From Candidatus Peribacteria bacterium RIFCSPHIGHO2_02_FULL_53_20 (lineage in GTDB: Bacteria; Patescibacteriota; Gracilibacteria; Peribacterales; Peribacteraceae), in assembly GCA_001787585.1 (NCBI GenBank), contig MFXW01000029.1:9327-41677 (forward strand): a DNA stretch of 32,351 nucleotides, written 5' to 3'. Of this stretch, positions 15,381-32,156 are shown piece by piece (within the stretch, counting starts at the first letter, position 1; every line of letters begins with the position of its first letter). Position numbers and translations under genes: made by a program. Under the pieces are notes generated by a model. The model searched no databases and was not told the origin of the DNA. It saw nothing but the letters and a program-made list of their open reading frames with translations.

Positions 15381-18041
15381 ATGGCATTAGAAGCATTCGT
15401 GCCGCCGGCGAAGTCACTTCCCATGAAAAAGGGATCCAGAAAAACAGATGCCCACAGGATATTCGATGCCATGCACGGGCAGATGGATGCGGTGTACCCT
15501 GCGGATGATGCCGAGGCATGGAGCTGGACTGGAGAAGGCTTTTCCGAACACATCATTACGCCTCCCGTTGACGATTTCAGCTACTGGTTTTCCCATACAT
15601 TTGAAACATCTGATGAGTTTTCCCAAGCGTTCGTCCAGCGGATGTTTACGGTCTGGCACTCACTTGAGGAAGAAGGATTCCGGGCCAACGATCACGAGTT
15701 GTATGAACATCAGAAGGCACTCTTTGCATGGATCGCGCTGAGCGGTGTCACCGGTGTGCGCTTCAAGATGGCCAATCTCCTGATCCGTTCTCCATACGGA
15801 AGTGGCAAAAGTCTTGTCGCGGGACTCACAAGCCGTGCCATGTATGAATTGCAGGCGGAAATGATCGCACGCGGAGTGGATATCGCCTCTATTCCTACAG
15901 GCGCACTTCTTGGTCTTCGGAGGGAACACATGCAACAAAACGCTTTGGGGCAACAGTATGCGGTGCTCCAGCCGCCGTATACAGTGGAGCGCAGAGACGT
16001 GAATTCGTTTTGGCAAAGTCTCGGCAAAATGTATGGCGATGATTTTGCAGGGAGCTTCGCTCGTCCGGCAGGAAAGCAGCATCCGTTCTACAATCTCTTC
16101 CCCATTGCTGACGAAGCAGAGCATGCTCCTCCGGTTGCCACACGGCTGCAGAATTACTTTGAGCAAATGGACAGTAAGCGTGCGGCATCATGGAAAGGCG
16201 TGGCTCCAAAAAGTCAGAGGCACATTGTCGACACTTTGGAGGCATTAATGGAAGGACGCATTGTTCTCGTGCCTGATGCCTACAATGTTCCTCAGCCCGA
16301 GAAGCCGATTCCCTTGGCGGATGATCAGAAAGAACACGGGAATCGCTACCTCGGGGATTCGGCTCACGCACTTTTCGAGAGTGAACTGTACCACGTGAAG
16401 ACAACGCATCCGCACCTTGCACTGGATCGCAATGCGTATACCACACAACCAAATATGGAACATCCAGCGCACTTCTGTATCGCGTATGGCACGATGCTCA
16501 CGCGTGATCCAGAGCTCATCCGCGCGGATGTCCGAGAAGAAATTATGCGACGTCTCCGGTTCATGGCTCTGGATGAAGCGGGAAAATACAATCCTTTGTC
16601 CGTGACCGACTCGGCGGCGCAGGCCTCTGGGCAGCCGACTCTGCTATTGGGATTTACCGGCCAGGATCGTGGTATCGACGGGTGGACGGCTCGGTCACCG
16701 GTCCTCTCCATCCGGCAGATGATCCGTTTGGGTCTCATGAAGCCTATTGCCTTCTCCGGCATCGGCGATGCGCGCCATCCCGTGAAGCAGGGGACGGAAG
16801 AGGCGTGGGATGTGTATCGCGATGCGATGTTCCGGGACGAAAAAACCGCAAGCACACTCCATCTTCCACAGGCACACGAGCTCGATACCGTTGTCGTTCC
16901 GCCTGCTGGGCACGTCCGTGAATATGCGCATCGCATCATCGAAGCGCATAAGGAAGAAGGGAAGCCGGTCAAAGTATGGGCATTTGATCCCGAAGCCGGA
17001 GACAACCGCTGGGGGATCATCGCCAACGGCTTCAATGCGCCGAAGAAGGAAGGAGATTCGCGGCGCGTTCTTGTTGCTCCTCCTTCGCAAATTTCCGAAG
17101 CGCTTCATCTCGGCGCAGAATGTTATGACGTTCTCACGAATGTGCAGCGCCATGCACTTGATCAAATGCGCGGGAGACTGGGGCACATTCGCAATACCGG
17201 AGCATCGGAGCGAGAGCGGAAGAATGCCCGAACGCATTTTCGCATGCAGTGGCTGCGCGATGCCCCCGGGGAGGCCTATGTCCGTGATATGGCCCAAAAA
17301 ATGGGATACAAGCTCGATGATGAAGGAGCCACATGGAAGCAGCAGCAATGCATGATAGATGCCGAAGCTCATGATCGCGATCAGAAACGAAAAGGGATGA
17401 GCGCTCCGGAGTCGATTCCCGACATCAAAGCCATTCAGATGCGCAAAACCCGCAAACAATCGAAAGCAGAAGGAACTCCCTTAAAGCCCACGAGCTCATA
17501 CGTGATCGCGCGTGAAGCAAAGAAGTCTGAACGCGAAGTCAAACGCAGCTTGAAGCGAGCGCTGGAATTGCCTTCTGTCATGGCATCGCTTCCGCCCGCT
17601 TCGGTTGCGACTTCAGAGACGACGACACGTCTTCCCACAGAGTCGATCCCGTTACATCTAGCTACGAATCCACATCTTCGCATCGACACTACACCTTCGG
17701 TAAAACTTCTGGAATATTCCGCGACGGTCCGGAAGAAAGGTAAAGGGAAAAGTGCGAAACAGAGAGAAATTTCCGTAACGATCATCGTCGGGCCGGATGG
17801 TATGCCGACGAATCTTGGAACGCTTGCAAACATTCACGGAATCGGTGCCTATGCCAACAATTTGATGCGTAAGTCACGAGAAGAGCTCGCAAATGACGTT
17901 CAAAAAGCAGCCTTGGCCAAAGTGGTCGCACAGGAAATCCTGCGTTTACAGCAAGTAGTCGAAGATCGGAAGAATGGCGGAACGAAAAAACCAGATGCCG
18001 ACTCCAGTGGCCACTACATTGGTGTGAAACTGGTGAGATAA
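15381..18041 (+). CDS. Divergent superfamily 2 helicase/translocase-like ATPase, unknown system
   Basis: An 886-residue protein with a recognisable but divergent SF2 ATPase layout. A Q-like LYEHQKAL (108-114) precedes Walker A SPYGSGKS (137-144). Walker B is FMALDEAGKYN (394-404), with DEAG in place of DEAD/DEAH. LLLGFTGQD follows in the motif III position, and QMRGRLGHIR (595-604) resembles motif VI. The ~250 residues between Walker A and B are unusually long. The C-terminal ~280 residues are basic and Ser/Thr-rich, ending in a small domain I do not recognise. No nuclease, methylase or DNA-recognition domain is evident. It probably moves on DNA or RNA, or remodels a complex, using ATP. It precedes the HTH-rich gene and is likely co-transcribed with it. 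Exact function unknown. Confidence 0.7.
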   Translation: MALEAFVPPAKSLPMKKGSRKTDAHRIFDAMHGQMDAVYPADDAEAWSWTGEGFSEHIITPPVDDFSYWFSHTFETSDEFSQAFVQRMFTVWHSLEEEGFRANDHELYEHQKALFAWIALSGVTGVRFKMANLLIRSPYGSGKSLVAGLTSRAMYELQAEMIARGVDIASIPTGALLGLRREHMQQNALGQQYAVLQPPYTVERRDVNSFWQSLGKMYGDDFAGSFARPAGKQHPFYNLFPIADEAEHAPPVATRLQNYFEQMDSKRAASWKGVAPKSQRHIVDTLEALMEGRIVLVPDAYNVPQPEKPIPLADDQKEHGNRYLGDSAHALFESELYHVKTTHPHLALDRNAYTTQPNMEHPAHFCIAYGTMLTRDPELIRADVREEIMRRLRFMALDEAGKYNPLSVTDSAAQASGQPTLLLGFTGQDRGIDGWTARSPVLSIRQMIRLGLMKPIAFSGIGDARHPVKQGTEEAWDVYRDAMFRDEKTASTLHLPQAHELDTVVVPPAGHVREYAHRIIEAHKEEGKPVKVWAFDPEAGDNRWGIIANGFNAPKKEGDSRRVLVAPPSQISEALHLGAECYDVLTNVQRHALDQMRGRLGHIRNTGASERERKNARTHFRMQWLRDAPGEAYVRDMAQKMGYKLDDEGATWKQQQCMIDAEAHDRDQKRKGMSAPESIPDIKAIQMRKTRKQSKAEGTPLKPTSSYVIAREAKKSEREVKRSLKRALELPSVMASLPPASVATSETTTRLPTESIPLHLATNPHLRIDTTPSVKLLEYSATVRKKGKGKSAKQREISVTIIVGPDGMPTNLGTLANIHGIGAYANNLMRKSREELANDVQKAALAKVVAQEILRLQQVVEDRKNGGTKKPDADSSGHYIGVKLVR

Positions 18042-18060: not shown

Positions 18061-20289
18061 GTGCTTCGCAGCGAATTTCCAGCAGATTACGGCGAAAAGC
18101 TTTCTCTCGAAGAACCTGATTTGTGGGACATTAACGATTTTAAAGGTCATAAGCGAATGGCGGTTGCACGTGGCAATGCGATGCTGAGTGATATCTTCGA
18201 GACGCGGAAGACGGATCTCCCAAAACTCATTGCCGCAGTGCGGTGGTCTCTCTGCCAGATGCCATTTCGGGACTATGCGCATGGAGTTGGCTTAAGTCCG
18301 AATGGATACAGCCCCATGGAGAAGGATATGAAGAAGGAGGGACTGCTCAGCCGCTACAAGTACACCCTACTTCTTCGTGACTGGGAGCAGCGAGGAATTT
18401 CTCTGGGTATCCGCGAACAGATGATCGATGTACTCACAGCTCCGCATCTTCTTCAGATGGATGAAACATGCACGGATCTCCTGAGCAGTATCGAGTACAT
18501 CCGGAACCAATCGAAACATCTTCTTGGAGTCTTTGATATGAATGCATTTTACCATCGCATAGGTGTGGATCGTGGTCATGAAGAGGTAGAAAAGAGCTTC
18601 CCCCACCTCTTCAATACGATCTGGCAGCGGGAGCAAACAGATACAGTCCCGGACTGCCTTGAGGTCATCAGCATCGTGGATGCCATGTACGGTGGAAAAT
18701 CCAAATGTACGAAACAAATGCACGCGTTGCGGAAAGCCCAAGGGCTCGGTGTCTGGAGCGAAGTGCAAAAATGGAAGTATCGGGAATCCACAGTCGAGAG
18801 AACACTCGCAGATTTTCTCGTGGGAGTGGAACGTGATCTGGCATTGCGTTTTCATGTGCCGCTCACCGCAAAGGCGCTCCAAGATCATTACGGATTCGGT
18901 CCCCACGATGCGCAATTTCTCATTCAGTGCGAATGGATCGATCCGGCGAGTGCTGAGAAGGCAGTACGGCAGATACTGCCGCCCCGCGATGCCAAGAAAT
19001 TATTGCAAGGGTGGTCGGAGGAATATGCAGAGGAGAGCAAACGGGAAACATTCGGCAAGCTTGCCAGTGCTGCGATGGAGGATCGCGGTTACACGGCTGC
19101 CGATGTTGCAGAACTTCTCGGACTTAAGGCTCCCGAGGAGCGTGGCAAAGATACCGTTGAAAGAAAACAGCGTTATCGACCGGATGCGGAGGTGCGAGGA
19201 GTGCTGTTTGAAAATCATGTGAGCAAGCAAATTTCCGTGGAGGCATTGATTCAGGTCATTGCTCGTGATGAGGATCATCTTCAGCGACTGCGAAAAATGT
19301 ATGCCGATTACCGGACTCGTTTTTTCAGGCGCAACGGAGCAACACTGGAAGGAAAAGGGTTGCAGATGCGCACCGCACGCGAGCTTGCCAATGTCACCAT
19401 GCATGATCTCGCATTACATTTTCTTCCGAAGAAGTTGCATGACGATCGTACAGCCGTACGCAAAAAAGATCTCGAACTCCAGAAACTGGAACGCGACGAA
19501 GGGAGCATACATCCTATTCGATTTTCAAGTGTCTTCCGCATTCTCGAGCAGATCAGTGCGCAGCGCGTTGAAGAAGCAATGGCTCGTGTAAGCGCTCTGG
19601 ACATCATGGATGAGTCACTCAAACAATTCTCGACCGTGCGGGAGATGGCTTCCAATCTTGTCGTGGGGCTGAAGGGAGCCAATAAAATTTCCGATGCCAT
19701 GCGCGACATTGCGCGCAATGATTCCGAATGGCTGCGATCCGATCTCATCACCAAAATGGCAGAGGGCGCATTTGTGAGCGCCCTTCCTCCACTAAGGGTG
19801 ATGACCAAGTCGACGATTGACAAAGAACTTCCTGCAGAAGTCGTGCGGGATTGGCATGAGCGGTTCCCGGAACAATTGCAAAAAGGATTGATGGGTTTCG
19901 GGAAAGTCACAAGACCAATCGCACGCGTTCTTTGTACGCTGATTGCCCGGATCGAAGCCGAGCCCATGCAGTTCTACCAAGATCGTGTGCCGGGCATTGT
20001 GCCTACGCACGGAACAAAACACCTGCGGGACTTGGATGCGGGCTATCCAGTCGATTGGCGATACATTCACAAGGCTCTGTTGGGTGCGGGGATCCCAGCT
20101 GGGCACCCTTCGTATGTTCTCGTGAAAGAACTATATGACAACGGGGGAAATCTCGCAGCGGCACTGCTCAAAGTCATTCCTATACTTCAAGATGCGGGCG
20201 AAGAAATCCATCCGTTGAACTTGCAGGGATTAACATTCAATGAACTGAAGCCTTTTCAAAAAACCAATAAGAAATCTCCCAAAAAATAA
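18061..20289 (+). CDS. Large multi-helix-turn-helix protein, unknown function
   Basis: A 742-residue soluble, mostly helical protein that I cannot assign. Several segments resemble XRE-like helix-turn-helix units: MPFRDYAHGVGLSPNGY (about 66-82), GYTAADVAELLGL (about 347-359), MRTARELANVTMHDLALHF (about 440-458) and WRYIHKALLGAGIPAGHPSY near the C-terminus. There is no visible catalytic motif, signal peptide or membrane helix. It starts with GTG, 19 bases after the SF2-like gene across a T-rich gap, so the two likely form one operon. Inference: the HTH protein binds nucleic acid and the SF2-like ATPase acts with it. Its stop codon abuts the convergent rel-like gene with no gap. Confidence 0.65.
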   Translation: MLRSEFPADYGEKLSLEEPDLWDINDFKGHKRMAVARGNAMLSDIFETRKTDLPKLIAAVRWSLCQMPFRDYAHGVGLSPNGYSPMEKDMKKEGLLSRYKYTLLLRDWEQRGISLGIREQMIDVLTAPHLLQMDETCTDLLSSIEYIRNQSKHLLGVFDMNAFYHRIGVDRGHEEVEKSFPHLFNTIWQREQTDTVPDCLEVISIVDAMYGGKSKCTKQMHALRKAQGLGVWSEVQKWKYRESTVERTLADFLVGVERDLALRFHVPLTAKALQDHYGFGPHDAQFLIQCEWIDPASAEKAVRQILPPRDAKKLLQGWSEEYAEESKRETFGKLASAAMEDRGYTAADVAELLGLKAPEERGKDTVERKQRYRPDAEVRGVLFENHVSKQISVEALIQVIARDEDHLQRLRKMYADYRTRFFRRNGATLEGKGLQMRTARELANVTMHDLALHFLPKKLHDDRTAVRKKDLELQKLERDEGSIHPIRFSSVFRILEQISAQRVEEAMARVSALDIMDESLKQFSTVREMASNLVVGLKGANKISDAMRDIARNDSEWLRSDLITKMAEGAFVSALPPLRVMTKSTIDKELPAEVVRDWHERFPEQLQKGLMGFGKVTRPIARVLCTLIARIEAEPMQFYQDRVPGIVPTHGTKHLRDLDAGYPVDWRYIHKALLGAGIPAGHPSYVLVKELYDNGGNLAAALLKVIPILQDAGEEIHPLNLQGLTFNELKPFQKTNKKSPKK

Positions 20290-21618
20290 TCACACCCCTT
20301 CCACACAATCCCCATCTTTCAGCTCCGTCTCCACCGGTTTTTTCCTGCCGTTGATCCGCACAACGCGGATTGTTTTTGGGGTATGCGGACAGGCGATCTT
20401 CAGAAAATCCCGCGCAGTCGCCGGGCGGGGAATGTGATAGAGATTGTCCTGGGCGTCGAAGATGGCGATATGCGATTCGTCGAAATACGAACGCAGCGCT
20501 TTCTCAAACTGCGTCGGCGACCGTGCTTCCGCCCGCAACGTCTGCAGGTTGCGCCAGAGATCCACTGCTGTCCCGACACTATTCAAGGCATAGGTCATAC
20601 GTTTGTATTCCGCGTGCGACATCACGCCGAGCTCGCATTCGCGGTCCATTTCCTCCGTTCGGATCTGGATCTCCATTGGCTGTTCCGTGACCCCGGGCAG
20701 CGGCCAGATCACGGTGTGGATGGAGCGGTACCCGTTCTCCTTCGGCGCGCCGATGTAGTCCTTGAGTTTTCCCGGCACAGGATGCATGCAACGGTGGACG
20801 ACACCGAGTGTGCGGTAGCAGTCATCAAGCGATGGAACGATGATGCGCAGCGCGAGCCGGTCCGTGAGCTCACGGAATGGACGTCCTTTCACCACGATTT
20901 TGCGGTACGTGGAGTAGAGCCCCTTGATGCGGTGACTGAGGTCCGCGGAGATGCCGACACTCGCCAATTGTTTCCGGAGAAACGCCGTCGTTCGATCGAT
21001 GCAGATCATATCCACCGCGCTCATGCGCGCGAATTCCTCCTCCAGTGCTGCGGCATTTTTCGGCTGCAGTATCTGGAAACAGATGTCTTCCATTTCGTGG
21101 CGCCACCGGTGGAACCCGAGTCTTCCGGCGATCGCCGTGTACATGTGGAGCGTCTCCCGGGCGATCTCACGCTGGCGCTTCGGGGAGAGTGTCCGGATGT
21201 GGCGGATGTCGATGAGACGGTGTGCCATGCGGAGCAGAAGCAATCGGCTGTCATTCGCGAAGGAGCGGATGACGCGATCGAGATCTTTTGTATTTTCATC
21301 AATGTGCAATTTGCGCAGCTTGTGCATGCCGTGCGCGAGTGACCGTTCCTCCGATGTGAGCGGAGAAGCTTCCATGATCGCTTTTCCGTCGGGAAGAACG
21401 AGAAGGTCGTGTGCCATGGCCGCCGCAAGCAGCGTGGTATCCGCAGTGATCTCACGGAGTGCCTTCACTATCTGCTGCCCGTGCTCGAAGTAACTTTCTC
21501 CGGTATGTCTGCGGAGACCAGCAAGGTGCGTACGCGCAAAATCCAACACCATTCTCAGATGCGTGGCAGACGCAGGAGAGAGGCATTCGACGACGAGAGT
21601 ACTGGCGGATGTGTTCAT
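20290..21618 (-). CDS. Short RelA/SpoT homologue, synthetase-active, hydrolase-degenerate
   Basis: A 442-residue Rel-type protein with an HD-like region, synthetase and TGS, but no helical, zinc-finger or ACT domains (typical Rel is ~740). The synthetase looks intact: RIKGLYSTYRK, LTDRLALRIIV, GKLKDYIGAPKENGYRSIHT and MEIQIRTEEMD. In the hydrolase, H46 and H70-D71 remain, but the usual HDVVED reads HDLLVL and the LADRLHNMRTL element reads MAHRLIDIRHIRTL, so the ED pair and a catalytic Asp are lost. It likely makes (p)ppGpp and may not degrade it. A TATACT box lies 10 nt before the ATG. No other (p)ppGpp hydrolase is in this window. Confidence 0.88.
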   Translation of the reverse strand: MNTSASTLVVECLSPASATHLRMVLDFARTHLAGLRRHTGESYFEHGQQIVKALREITADTTLLAAAMAHDLLVLPDGKAIMEASPLTSEERSLAHGMHKLRKLHIDENTKDLDRVIRSFANDSRLLLLRMAHRLIDIRHIRTLSPKRQREIARETLHMYTAIAGRLGFHRWRHEMEDICFQILQPKNAAALEEEFARMSAVDMICIDRTTAFLRKQLASVGISADLSHRIKGLYSTYRKIVVKGRPFRELTDRLALRIIVPSLDDCYRTLGVVHRCMHPVPGKLKDYIGAPKENGYRSIHTVIWPLPGVTEQPMEIQIRTEEMDRECELGVMSHAEYKRMTYALNSVGTAVDLWRNLQTLRAEARSPTQFEKALRSYFDESHIAIFDAQDNLYHIPRPATARDFLKIACPHTPKTIRVVRINGRKKPVETELKDGDCVEGV

Positions 21619-27413: not shown

Positions 27414-27528
27414 GCCAGGAAATGGCTTATTCATGCCGCAATTCCAGCGAGAATGGCAAATACTGAAATAGGTGAATCCATCATGTCCTTGCGTTCTGTA
27501 AAGACCTTGGTAGCATACGAAATTGCCG

Positions 27529-29775
27529 ATGACCCAGTTGCCCGCTTCTATCGAGCAATACCTTCTCGAGTCCGGATTCTCCGGAACGGAGATCTTCATT
27601 CTCAAGCATTTGCTTGCGGGAGGTTCCATGACATTACGCGAGCTTGCCGCGAAGACCGGGAAAAGCACGGGGGTGCTGGATTCTGCGAGTAAAAAGCTTC
27701 TGAAGAAGGGGATTTTAGGTCGCGAAGTGATCAATGAGACGCCAAAGCTCACACTCTCTTCTTTAGGCGCTGTTGTCGCATGGGTCCATGAAGACAGCGA
27801 ACACAAGCACAGAGCCATGGAGCGCCGCGAAAAGGATCTGCAATCCTTCGTGGATTCACTTTCCGTCGAAGTCAGCCGCGCCGATATCCAGCATTACGAA
27901 GGATTAGCAGGATTGGAGCAGACCTACACGAAACTCCTCGAAGAGTGCGGCGGACACATGCTCCACTTCCTCCCCGTCCGTCATACGGAGGTCGAAGATC
28001 CACTCCGCGACTTCCTCGTTTCCTACTTCCGCCTCCGCCGCCGTAATGGTGTCATCACGCGCGTCATCGCTCAAGACACCCCCCTCGGTCGCCGCTATCA
28101 ATCTCGTGATGTCTTCGAGTATCGCCAGACGCTCCTCGTCCCAGAGTCCGTTTACGCCTTCAATACCGAAAAGGTCGTCGCCGGCGACTGGGTCGCAACG
28201 ATCAATCACGAAGAAAACAAAGCGTTCCTCATCCGCAGCAAAGAAATGGCGCATACCGAGAAAGCGATGTTTGAGGCGATTTGGAAGCAGGAGATGGTGA
28301 AGCAGAAGGAGAAAGTGGGGGCAGCGGCTCCTACCACAGTGAAGGAATTGGATGTGGGAACGAGGGTAGCGTCGACCGTAAGAGATTTTCTTCTTAGCAA
28401 GCGCAGCATTGCTGCCTTTGCTTTCTGTGGCGTTCTGGCAGGTGTTCTTACCTTTGCTCTCTACAAGAATAACGAGAAACTTATCCTAAAGCGAGTAGAG
28501 GAAAAAATTCTTTCGGTTGCTGCTACAGGTGCTTTGCAATTCGATGCGAATGATCTCAATCAATTACGTACATCGGCAGACATCACTAAGCCGCAATATG
28601 CTAAAGTTATCCGCCAGCTCAATGCGATCCGGCAGCAGAACGAAGGTATCCAATACATTTATATCTTGCGTCCAACGGAGGAATTTGGCATTTGGGAATT
28701 TGTCGCAGATGCCGATTCATTGGATCTCTCTGCGCAAAAAGATTTGAATAAAGACGGAAAAATTGATGAGGCAGATCATCTCTCGCCGCCCGGAGAAAAA
28801 TACGACCCCATGAACTCAATGAATGAAAATAGTCTCGCATTAATTAAGCCCACCATCATCAGTGCATTGGCAGACCAGTGGGGCAATCTTATTGCCGGGT
28901 GGGCTCCCATTAAAGACAGCATGGGGAAAACAGTAGCTGTTCTCGGAGTGGATAAGTTTGCCAGCGATGTAGGGAGTCTTACGAATGCGACGTTTAAGCC
29001 TGTTCTATATTTCCTGAGCCTATTTTTCCTTTTTGCCTTCATTCGTCTGGCTGCGCTTAATCGTTCTTTGCTTAAAGAAATACTTTCCTTGAGTAAAACA
29101 AAAGCTTTTTTAACAGCAGCAGGTGTGTTGGTTATTTTGTTTATAGGGGTTTCCTATGCGATGTATCTGCAGACCTTGAATTTAATTAAAGAACAGACCG
29201 CAGAGCGTTTAAGAGCAATCGCAGCCACAACTGCTTTGCAAATTGATTACAAAGATCTTGAACCACTGCAGTTTGCGGCTGATATGAAGAGATCTGAGTA
29301 CCAAAGAGTTTTTGAAATTTTAAATAATGTGAGAAAAGAGAATCCAGATGTGAAATGGGCTTTTATTCTTCGACCAACCGGGAACGAGGGGATTTGGGAA
29401 TTTGTTGTAGATGCAGATGCAAATTATTTCTTGCCATCAGGAATCGATGAAAATCAGGATGGCGTTATATCGGAATCAGAAGAGAACGTTTTTCCGGGGT
29501 TTCAGTATGATGTGTCTGAGGATCCTATTATGAGAAGTGCGTTGGAAGGTCCAGTAGCAGCGAAAGAATTTCATTCGGATCAATGGGGTACATATGTTTC
29601 AGGATTTGCGCCTCTTTTTGATACTAACGAGACTGCGGTAGCAATCATCGGATTTGACATTACTGTGTCAGATGTTTTAATAAAAGCCAGAAATAAATTC
29701 CTTAGCAATCTACTATTCATAGTTATTTTGTTCATAGGGTTCATTATTTCCAAAAATATGACTATATTCAAATAG
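27529..29775 (+). CDS. TrmB-type regulator fused to two membrane sensor modules
   Basis: About 748 residues. The first ~255 are a complete TrmB-like regulator: a winged HTH (SGFSGTEIFILKHLLAGGSMTLRELAAKTGKSTGVLDSASKKLLKKGIL, quoted in parts elsewhere) and an effector-like domain. A linker (VGAAAPTTV) follows, then helix, sensor A, helix, helix, sensor B and a final helix. Each sensor has a Cache-like ending (DQWGNLIAGWAPI, DQWGTYVSGFAPL) and an EF-hand-like loop (DLNKDGKIDEAD near 405; DENQDGVISESE near 640). It would be a membrane-tethered one-component regulator that binds DNA inside while sensing outside. Start ATG 29 codons into the region is not needed; I use ATG 27529, two codons after the track TTG. 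Base composition falls sharply after the linker. Confidence 0.85.
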   Translation: MTQLPASIEQYLLESGFSGTEIFILKHLLAGGSMTLRELAAKTGKSTGVLDSASKKLLKKGILGREVINETPKLTLSSLGAVVAWVHEDSEHKHRAMERREKDLQSFVDSLSVEVSRADIQHYEGLAGLEQTYTKLLEECGGHMLHFLPVRHTEVEDPLRDFLVSYFRLRRRNGVITRVIAQDTPLGRRYQSRDVFEYRQTLLVPESVYAFNTEKVVAGDWVATINHEENKAFLIRSKEMAHTEKAMFEAIWKQEMVKQKEKVGAAAPTTVKELDVGTRVASTVRDFLLSKRSIAAFAFCGVLAGVLTFALYKNNEKLILKRVEEKILSVAATGALQFDANDLNQLRTSADITKPQYAKVIRQLNAIRQQNEGIQYIYILRPTEEFGIWEFVADADSLDLSAQKDLNKDGKIDEADHLSPPGEKYDPMNSMNENSLALIKPTIISALADQWGNLIAGWAPIKDSMGKTVAVLGVDKFASDVGSLTNATFKPVLYFLSLFFLFAFIRLAALNRSLLKEILSLSKTKAFLTAAGVLVILFIGVSYAMYLQTLNLIKEQTAERLRAIAATTALQIDYKDLEPLQFAADMKRSEYQRVFEILNNVRKENPDVKWAFILRPTGNEGIWEFVVDADANYFLPSGIDENQDGVISESEENVFPGFQYDVSEDPIMRSALEGPVAAKEFHSDQWGTYVSGFAPLFDTNETAVAIIGFDITVSDVLIKARNKFLSNLLFIVILFIGFIISKNMTIFK
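28315..28337. repeat. 23-bp imperfect palindrome at the TrmB/sensor junction
   Basis: GTGGGGGCAGC, a central G, and GCTCCTACCAC form an odd dyad with two mismatches and one G-T pair over 11 positions. It is translated as part of VGAAAPTTV, in the linker between the complete TrmB-like part and the first membrane helix. It may be another in-frame palindromic repeat. Confidence 0.5.
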
Positions 29776-29825
29776 AACTATCAAAATGACATTGTGCATC
29801 GGTAGCAAAAATCAAGATAAAGGGT

Positions 29826-29831
29826 TATAAT
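29826..29831 (+). promoter_or_regulatory. -10 box for histidine kinase (leaderless)
   Basis: A perfect TATAAT ends 7 nt before the kinase ATG at 29839, so the first transcribed base should be at the start codon. No good -35 is seen. The kinase can thus be transcribed apart from the upstream fusion gene. Confidence 0.55.
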
Positions 29832-29838
29832 GCTTTGA

Positions 29839-31281
29839 ATGAAAATAAAAAAAATAATTGAAAGCTATTGGGCCCACGGAAGAGTTCTTATGGCACTTAG
29901 TACATGTGCCCTTTTGGCAGCAACAATTACATATGTATTATTCATACAAACACAGCAAATTTTGAAACAAAGACTTCAAGAACGAATTACGGCAATAGTT
30001 TCTACCATTGCCAATGAAATTAGTGCAGTAGATGTAGAGAGCGTTAAAGATGTAACTGATCTAAACACACCTCAATTGGAAAAATTGGTTAAACAATTAG
30101 AAAGATTAAGATTGGCAAATGCTAACATTCAATATGCATATATCATGAGGCGGACTAAGGAGTCTAATATTTTGGAATTTGTAGCTGATGCAGACTCTTT
30201 GGATTCAATAGCAGAGCTAGATTTAAACGAAGATGGAGAAGTGTCAGAAGATGAAGTAGCACCTTTGCCCGGAGATCCCTTTGATATATCTGCATATCCT
30301 ACCCTAAGAGATGAGGCTTTTTATCATCCGGTAGCAGCGAATGAATTAGAGCAGGACCAGTGGTCAGTACAGCTTTCTGCATATGCTCCGATTTTGGATG
30401 AAAGTGGCAATGCAGTTGCAATCGTTGGTATCGATGTGATCATGGATGATTTCAACGAGAGAACGCAAGCAATGCTTCGTCCTTTTCTATTGTTCATTCT
30501 TTTTCTAATTCTTTTGCTTTCCCTTTTAACTGTAACACTTGTGCGTGTTTATAATGAACGAGTTGAGGCAGTAAAAGAACTTGATCGTCAAAAAGATGAA
30601 TTACTTGGCATCGTTAGTCATCAATTAGCCACTCCTATTTCTGCGTTGAAATGGGATTTTGAGATGTTGCTGGATGGAGATATCGGAACATTTACGGGAG
30701 AACAAAAAGATTTCTTCCAAAAACTACAAGGAGTGGCCGCACACCTTTCTGATCTCGTTTCGATGATTCTCGATGTGTCACGTATTCAATTAGGACGTAT
30801 GAAGGTAGATCGAACAGATCTTGAGCTCAATACATTCTTTGATGAGCTTTTGAATATCATGTCCGCTAAAGCAAAAGAGAGGAATGTGAATCTTACATCA
30901 TCTATACCAAAAGGCCTTCGTACTGCTCAGTTAGATAAACGTCTTATGTTGATGATAACAGAAAATCTTATGAGTAATGCAATCAAGTACACCCCCGAAA
31001 AAGGAAATGTAAAATTAGATGTGAAAGTGGAGAATAAAGTTCTAAAAATAGTAGTTAGCGACACAGGTTGCGGAATTCCAAAACAGGATCAAGACAAAAT
31101 TTTTGGGAAATTATATCGTGCTAGTAATGTCCGGAGTGTTGATGGAAATGGATTTGGTTTGTATGTAGTTAAAGGTGCAACAGAGGCTCAAGGGGGAAAA
31201 ATTACTTTTAAAAGCCAGGAAAACCAAGGAACATCTTTCTATGTAGAATTGCCCCTAAAGGAAAATCAAGAAACCAAATAA
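29839..31281 (+). CDS. Membrane sensor histidine kinase with EF-hand-containing sensor
   Basis: A 480-residue kinase. Helix one spans about 16-36. An extracytoplasmic sensor (37-215) follows, homologous to the two sensors of the upstream gene: AYIMRRTKESNILEFVADADS, an EF-hand-like DLNEDGEVSEDE (128-139), DQWSVQLSAYAPI and VAIVGIDV. Helix two is about 218-240. HisKA has the phospho-acceptor H261 in GIVSHQLATPISALKW. The HATPase has an N box (NLMSNAIKYT), G1 (DTGCGIP), F box and G2 (GNGFGLYVV). All catalytic motifs are intact. No response regulator gene is adjacent, so its target is unknown; the TrmB fusion has no receiver domain. The DNA is AT-rich, unlike the first 28 kb. The gene end overlaps the convergent transporter by 16 bases. 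Confidence 0.93.
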   Translation: MKIKKIIESYWAHGRVLMALSTCALLAATITYVLFIQTQQILKQRLQERITAIVSTIANEISAVDVESVKDVTDLNTPQLEKLVKQLERLRLANANIQYAYIMRRTKESNILEFVADADSLDSIAELDLNEDGEVSEDEVAPLPGDPFDISAYPTLRDEAFYHPVAANELEQDQWSVQLSAYAPILDESGNAVAIVGIDVIMDDFNERTQAMLRPFLLFILFLILLLSLLTVTLVRVYNERVEAVKELDRQKDELLGIVSHQLATPISALKWDFEMLLDGDIGTFTGEQKDFFQKLQGVAAHLSDLVSMILDVSRIQLGRMKVDRTDLELNTFFDELLNIMSAKAKERNVNLTSSIPKGLRTAQLDKRLMLMITENLMSNAIKYTPEKGNVKLDVKVENKVLKIVVSDTGCGIPKQDQDKIFGKLYRASNVRSVDGNGFGLYVVKGATEAQGGKITFKSQENQGTSFYVELPLKENQETK

Positions 31282-32156
31282 ACACCCAATATCATCATTG
31301 AAAGTGCCAGATATTTTTTCCAAAGATTCAAAAAGACTTGGGTGTCATACTTAACTTTAAAAAATGAAACAATCAGTAAGCCAATAATAAATGTAAAACC
31401 CGGCATTGTTGTTTCTACTGCTGCAACGAGTGAAGGAATGCCTTCTTGAATAGATTTTTGCGCAAATGCCAAAGCTGCAAGGTTTATAATTTCTATACAA
31501 ATAAATAATTTAAATGAAGAATTTAACAAACCACTTCTGATAGCTAAGACAGATCTTACTTTTGTAAAAATAAGAGGGATCACACCGACTAAAATAATAC
31601 CACAAGTTAGTAGAGTGAATCCGGTAACGTATTGAGTATTTTCATATACAAAATCTTGAATAAGATAGGAAATAGCTTGAAGCAATGAAGCTCCAACCAT
31701 AAAAATGAAGGCAGATGTTCGTGTCTCTAAATTATGATCAGAAAGCAGCATCATATTAGATGCAAAAATTAAAATAACGATTCCAATATATTGGTAAGGT
31801 GTAAGTATATTTCCAAATATTGAAAAACTAAGAATTGGTAAAATTGCTGGAATAATATTCCAGTAGGCAGCAACAATTCCTGCGTTGGTGTTCGCAAGCG
31901 CATTAAAATAAAGTAGCTGGCTGATTTGTATAAGGATTCCAGCACCGATGGCCAATAACATTATTGAGTTACTCGGCCATTCCCATCCTATTATTGGCAA
32001 AACAAAAGGTAACGGTGCAATGACTACAAGCGACGCAACAGCACTTGTAATAACACCTATCCAAGGTCTTTCAAAAATCTCGTCAATGCAATATTCATCG
32101 AGCAAATGTACAACCGCAAAACAGACAGCAGCAGCCAGCGCTAGGAATACCCACAT
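31266..32156 (-). CDS. EamA/DMT-superfamily transporter
   Basis: A 296-residue protein with about ten membrane helices in two EamA-type halves. The first half ends with NTNAGIVAAYWNIIPAILPIL and the second with IPSLVAAVETTMPGFTFIIGLL, both at the place where DMT permeases conserve small and charged residues. The substrate is unknown. The sequence is not closely similar to the other EamA protein in the window. The ATG at 32156 follows a TATATT box by 6 nt. The gene is AT-rich like the kinase and shares its 3' end with it, which suggests they entered the genome together. Confidence 0.85.
   Translation of the reverse strand: MWVFLALAAAVCFAVVHLLDEYCIDEIFERPWIGVITSAVASLVVIAPLPFVLPIIGWEWPSNSIMLLAIGAGILIQISQLLYFNALANTNAGIVAAYWNIIPAILPILSFSIFGNILTPYQYIGIVILIFASNMMLLSDHNLETRTSAFIFMVGASLLQAISYLIQDFVYENTQYVTGFTLLTCGIILVGVIPLIFTKVRSVLAIRSGLLNSSFKLFICIEIINLAALAFAQKSIQEGIPSLVAAVETTMPGFTFIIGLLIVSFFKVKYDTQVFLNLWKKYLALSMMILGVYLVS

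Follow-up and report, generated by a model that had tools for sequence, protein, structure and literature searches.

The window (the whole 32,351-nucleotide stretch of DNA analysed here) codes on its minus strand for a RelA/SpoT homologue (RSH) whose hydrolase site departs from the canonical one. Does this protein make (p)ppGpp that it could not degrade itself, and what would then remove the alarmone and control its synthesis? A literature search returned essentially nothing on alarmone control in Patescibacteria, and no paper on the RSHs of the window lineage was found. We consider it likely that the protein is a monofunctional (p)ppGpp synthetase of a Peregrinibacteria-type Patescibacterium, with hydrolysis carried out in trans and an inactive HD domain (pseudo-HD) that may serve in sensing.

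Domains and catalytic residues of the window protein

The ORF starts with ATG, stops with TGA and codes for 442 amino acids. The following features were located in it:
20290..21618, minus strand: short RSH ("A type") with pseudo-HD, active-looking synthetase and TGS (ORF, Pfam)
21112..21546, minus strand: HD_4 domain with altered catalytic residues (residues 25-169; Pfam HD_4, E 5.5e-19)
20599..20934, minus strand: RelA_SpoT synthetase domain (residues 229-340; Pfam RelA_SpoT, PF04607, E 4.6e-33)
20293..20478, minus strand: TGS-like C-terminal region, directly after which the protein ends (Rel homology up to residue 440; tails of the relatives)

The HD-synthetase-TGS order and the fold are those of the amino-terminal half of a long RSH, as seen by Pfam, by the match to B. 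subtilis Rel (residues 36-440, E 4.6e-58, gapless around the motifs) and in an AlphaFold2 model (pLDDT 82.5, pTM 0.72), for which the best Foldseek matches were the Rel catalytic-domain structures 6yxa, 8acu and 7oiw of B. subtilis and S. aureus. The RelA_SpoT synthetase domain with its catalytic motifs places the protein in the RSH superfamily, and its score with the NCBIfam model spoT_relA (TIGR00691), 287 bits, lies under the full-length cut-off of that model because the C-terminus is missing. A small alarmone synthetase (SAS) was ruled out, since SAS proteins have no HD domain, and a bifunctional Rel[HS] was ruled out by the hydrolase substitutions E81V, D82L, D144H and N148D (residue numbers are those of B. 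subtilis Rel unless a window-protein number is given). With the synthetase residues kept and the hydrolase residues lost, the protein would fit the monofunctional synthetase [hS] of Atkinson's notation.

In the synthetase site, R241, K243, S247, K251, D264, Y308, H312 and the glutamate of EIQIRT are all kept. The motifs read RIKGLYSTYRK, TDRLALR, KLKDYI, NGYRSIHT and MEIQIRT, so that the RxKD motif is KLKD (RFKD in Rel), the motif of RelA-type synthetases being ExDD. Apart from one S247A, these motifs are invariant in 16/16 relatives. The HD site, in contrast, combines kept and replaced positions:
21481..21483, minus strand: H46 (= H53), metal ligand position kept (Rel alignment)
21406..21411, minus strand: H70-D71 (= H77-D78), present in all relatives (clade alignments)
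21394..21399, minus strand: V74-L75 in place of the catalytic E81-D82 (Rel alignment)
21220..21222, minus strand: H133 in place of D144, clade-invariant (clade alignments)
21208..21210, minus strand: D137 in place of N148, clade-invariant, one helix turn beyond H133 (clade alignments)

The T151 position of Rel is also a histidine in the window protein. Among the 16 relatives first collected, R44, Y50, H77, D78, R141, H144, R145 and D148 were found in 16/16 and H53 in 15/16, with V or L at the E81 position and H, L or C at the D82 position. The altered residues are also present in 26 full-length family members, one N-interrupted sequence and one named record, and in these 28 sequences the E81 position is always hydrophobic and H144 and D148 are invariant. 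Beyond the first 16 relatives, agreement thus extends to ten other family members, to an eleventh in its HD half and to the named records. D82 is retained in one lineage only (L273/L143, probably the same genome); L143, Candidatus Peregrinibacteria bacterium CG1_02_54_53, is the nearest named genome to carry this gene type, with 53% identity, and suggests the Peregrinibacteria-type lineage given above. Since the same changes recur in family members, they are neither chance nor assembly error. Misalignment was ruled out by the gapless alignment and the invariant replacements in relatives. No conserved acid that might represent a relocated ED pair was found around residues 74-75 in the clade, where the sole conserved acid nearby is D137 (i+4 from H133).

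The original prediction had noted intact synthetase motifs, HD-VL in place of HD-ED and AHR in place of ADR; all three readings were confirmed by the B. subtilis Rel alignment, which adds the overlooked N148D, and the synthetase without a hydrolase of its own that it proposed is in agreement with these residues. With its intact synthetase domain, the protein would make the alarmone, and it would be unable to hydrolyse it, having neither the water-activating E81/D82 pair nor N148 and carrying a histidine in place of the metal ligand D144. On these residues, synthesis without hydrolysis is probable.

The protein was also said to lack a regulatory C-terminus. It does end after TGS, with no helical, CC/zinc-finger or ACT/RRM domains, which rules out a full-length Rel[HS] or RelA; the loss is nevertheless common in Patescibacteria and hence not an unusual feature of the window protein. 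It is unremarkable because otherwise intact bifunctional Patescibacteria RSHs also end soon after TGS: in a sample of the phylum, about 20 RSHs of 470-523 aa stop 32-59 aa past TGS, most of them with intact HD and synthetase sites. The gene is present in three congeners, and in each of them the protein stops directly past TGS, with differing stop codons (TGA in G003, TAA in G001); relatives in other genera extend 30-50 aa more, in a stretch similar to the beginning of the helical domain. TGA-recoded relatives do occur in the same class, but a recoded TGA prolonging the protein was ruled out, as the family has no in-frame TGA and a congener stops at the same place with TAA.

Conservation and possible role of the HD pocket

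The roles of the pocket residues were taken from A. baumannii SpoT, in which Y51, E82, D83 and N147 are each needed for hydrolysis, R45 stacks the guanine, and K140 and R144 hold the 3'-pyrophosphate (PMC9974481). By motif alignment these correspond to Y50, E81, D82, N148, R44, 141 and 145 of Rel, respectively. Three of the four residues essential for hydrolysis are thus lost in the window protein (E81, D82, N148) and Y50 is kept. Ligand, metal and catalytic positions were conserved in the window clade at 10/14 sites, against 45/138 across the HD domain, with a p of 0.002 that is a guide only, the 14 positions having been chosen from PMC9974481 and the sequences tested being related; at the same positions the other synthetase-only type (B type) conserves 2/14. 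With the SpoT roles (PMC9974481) mapped on its conservation, the clade keeps the alarmone-binding residues and metal ligands and has dropped the catalytic residues. The site described earlier as broken has therefore lost its catalytic residues, but the pocket is not decayed: it is frozen in an altered form.

Because R44, K141R, R145 and Y50 persist together with three metal ligands and the catalytic residues do not, the pseudo-HD is most likely alarmone-binding. It would still bind the alarmone and signal allosterically to the synthetase, a product sensing that would replace the absent ribosome-binding C-terminus; that absence makes control via the HD domain probable. In RelA of E. coli, the synthetase is under the control of an inactive HD domain (PMC8012599). 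Taken alone, sensing of (p)ppGpp by the HD pocket is a plausible but tentative proposal. More speculatively, the window type might form a new subgroup of RSHs with the hydrolase site converted to a dedicated non-hydrolysing (p)ppGpp receptor (and, via H-H-D-H, a metal site) whose feedback on the synthetase replaces ribosome control, within a family where the activities are split and hydrolysis is often membrane-tethered.

The HD domain might instead be a purely structural or regulatory remnant, with an empty pocket and no role other than as a scaffold for the synthetase, a possibility to which we give some weight: the pseudo-HD of RelA works as a scaffold and regulator (PMC8012599), and the other synthetase-only type of the same genomes is apparently fine with a drifted pocket. 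A scaffold pocket should drift as it does in those long synthetases, yet eight of the window pocket residues listed above are fixed in the first 16 relatives and H53 is missing from one only. The conserved H-H-D-H with the adjacent D148 could also be a metal site that has kept some catalytic activity. A site re-tooled in this way, with H46, H70, D71 and H133 (and D137) binding metal and hydrolysing (p)ppGpp or another nucleotide by a different chemistry, would account for the invariance of H144 and D148 in 28 sequences and for the retention of 3/4 metal ligands and of the phosphate-holding basic residues, and the relative MESH1 has other substrates (PMC13221220). We regard it as unlikely, as three of the four residues each essential in SpoT (E81, D82, N148, Y50; PMC9974481) are gone and the clade has no conserved acid near the ED position. 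Finally, a decaying pseudogene copy heading for loss, which would suit the patchy presence of the type (27/74 family genomes) and the further truncation in the genus of the window, is very improbable, given NG86 dN/dS values among congeners of about 0.10-0.14 in the HD half where unsaturated and about 0.1-0.14 in the HD and synthetase halves where measurable, synthetase motifs intact across about 20 genera, and no frameshifts besides one assembly gap.

Division of synthesis and hydrolysis in the genome and the family

The genome of the window (1.127 Mb, 91% complete, 81 contigs) codes for four RSHs in total, together with another two HD_4 proteins; besides the window protein these are:
L005:711-3974, minus strand: C11 RSH, 1088 aa, canonical HD site, synthetase motifs lost, 12-TM EamA-type membrane domain
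C5: RSH ("B type" long synthetase), 655 aa, HD dead, synthetase intact
L004:1288-2442, plus strand: C1 RSH, 385 aa, synthetase-TGS without HD, synthetase intact
C13: 195 aa, stand-alone HD, SAH-like small hydrolase (HD_4, canonical HD motifs)
L054:1468-2817, plus strand: C5 HD-zeta protein, 449 aa, HD_4 with canonical (p)ppGpp hydrolase motifs and a zeta-toxin-like P-loop kinase

The search of the genome for a separate HD-type hydrolase, which had been suggested for this gene, thus returned three proteins with canonical HD motifs, the C11 RSH, the C13 protein and the C5 HD-zeta protein. Hydrolysis in trans would be carried out by such dedicated hydrolases, chiefly the C11 RSH with its EamA membrane domain. 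The expected need of the synthetase for a separate hydrolase or tight control in a small genome holds in that hydrolases are present, but the protein is not a lone enzyme, standing among four RSHs and two HD_4 proteins in a family where the activities are split throughout. The gene of the C1 385-aa RSH precedes a PAS-PAS-GAF sensor gene and overlaps it in open frame; the two form a possible sensor-coupled alarmone synthetase.

A long hydrolase-dead synthetase was found in 36/36 family genomes analysed in sequence (a few as contig-end fragments), and none of these 36 genomes has a bifunctional RSH. An intact HD site, in an RSH or a small protein, is present in 34/36, the two exceptions being 85% and 88% complete. 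These counts of the split are for the family genomes. The HD site is canonical in 37/37 proteins of the hydrolase type, which have lost the synthetase residues; 26/37 carry 3 to 12 membrane segments, nearly all past residue 600, and 11/37 none, as predicted by hydropathy only (Pfam EamA was run for the genome of the window only). The window type was not seen in the other families sampled. An ordinary bifunctional Rel is present in several further families of the class, and two (G039, G049) also have the split hydrolase type.

The trees resolve the window type, the long synthetases and the hydrolase type as one clade each (SH-aLRT 100, 100 and 96), and a single clade for both synthetase-only types, with one shared HD loss, gave an AU p of 0.53, which is compatible with a single origin. 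The window clade stands apart from the proteobacterial sequences, which have intact HD motifs, the trees containing no true RelA. Descent from the short RSHs found elsewhere in Patescibacteria was unsupported, the window type being a separate long-stemmed clade. Another loss of hydrolase residues is apparent in L319-L322, short RSHs from other Patescibacteria that form one clade; their HD motifs are degenerate and their synthetase motifs are of the DDY form, three of them ExDD-like.

No neighbour gene is conserved past genus level, and no conserved operon joins the synthetase to the hydrolases; isoprenoid genes lie nearby in four genera and ligA at four loci, both apparently incidental. Two adjacent ORFs next to the gene, at 15381-18041(+) and 18061-20289(+), of 886 and 742 aa and with no Pfam or PADLOC families, were not tied to the synthetase as a partner. 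Their homologues occur in 7/59 genomes, as a pair in G004, G008 and G014 at least, and the pair looks like horizontal transfer because its presence is patchy, the loci differ, and homologues in other genera are closer (40-43% identity) than those in congeners (24-30%). GC drops from about 54% to 36-43% at the window's right end (28000-32000); this part spans the ORFs 27523-29775 and 29839-31281, both in one similarity cluster.

Comparison with known RSH systems

The split in this family is a subfunctionalisation of the RelA/SpoT style, known in kind, whereas the altered HD pocket is unusual. A family in which every analysed genome gave up the bifunctional Rel adds another, apparently independent, case of this type, and a pseudo-hydrolase that conserves its ligand pocket would allow the signalling from HD to synthetase to be tested directly, free of both hydrolysis and ribosome effects.

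Among RSHs without a C-terminal domain, RshC[HS] of Bacillus and those of Patescibacteria also stop inside the helical domain or ahead of it and retain TGS (PMC3153485), but in most of those examined here the HD site and the synthetase site are both intact. The L319-L322 clade has lost the HD motifs too, but differs in its ExDD/DDY synthetase motifs and has no link to the window clade in the trees. The B type of the same genome shares the dead HD and intact synthetase, and differs in its separate clade, drifted pocket and longer C-terminus. Like the window protein, RelA[hS] of beta- and gamma-proteobacteria has an HD domain without catalytic residues and an intact synthetase, a separate RSH (SpoT) carrying out hydrolysis; its HD pocket is however divergent and its ribosome-binding C-terminus complete (PMC3153485), whereas the window protein keeps the ligand contacts and stops after TGS. 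The RelA[hS] and SpoT[Hs] of Moraxellaceae are likewise long RSHs with fully divided activities, one only a synthetase and the other only a hydrolase, each retaining the dead partner domain (PMC9974481, PMC3153485). That pair belongs to another phylum and presumably split independently, while the window genome has three synthetases and a hydrolase with a 12-TM EamA-like domain.
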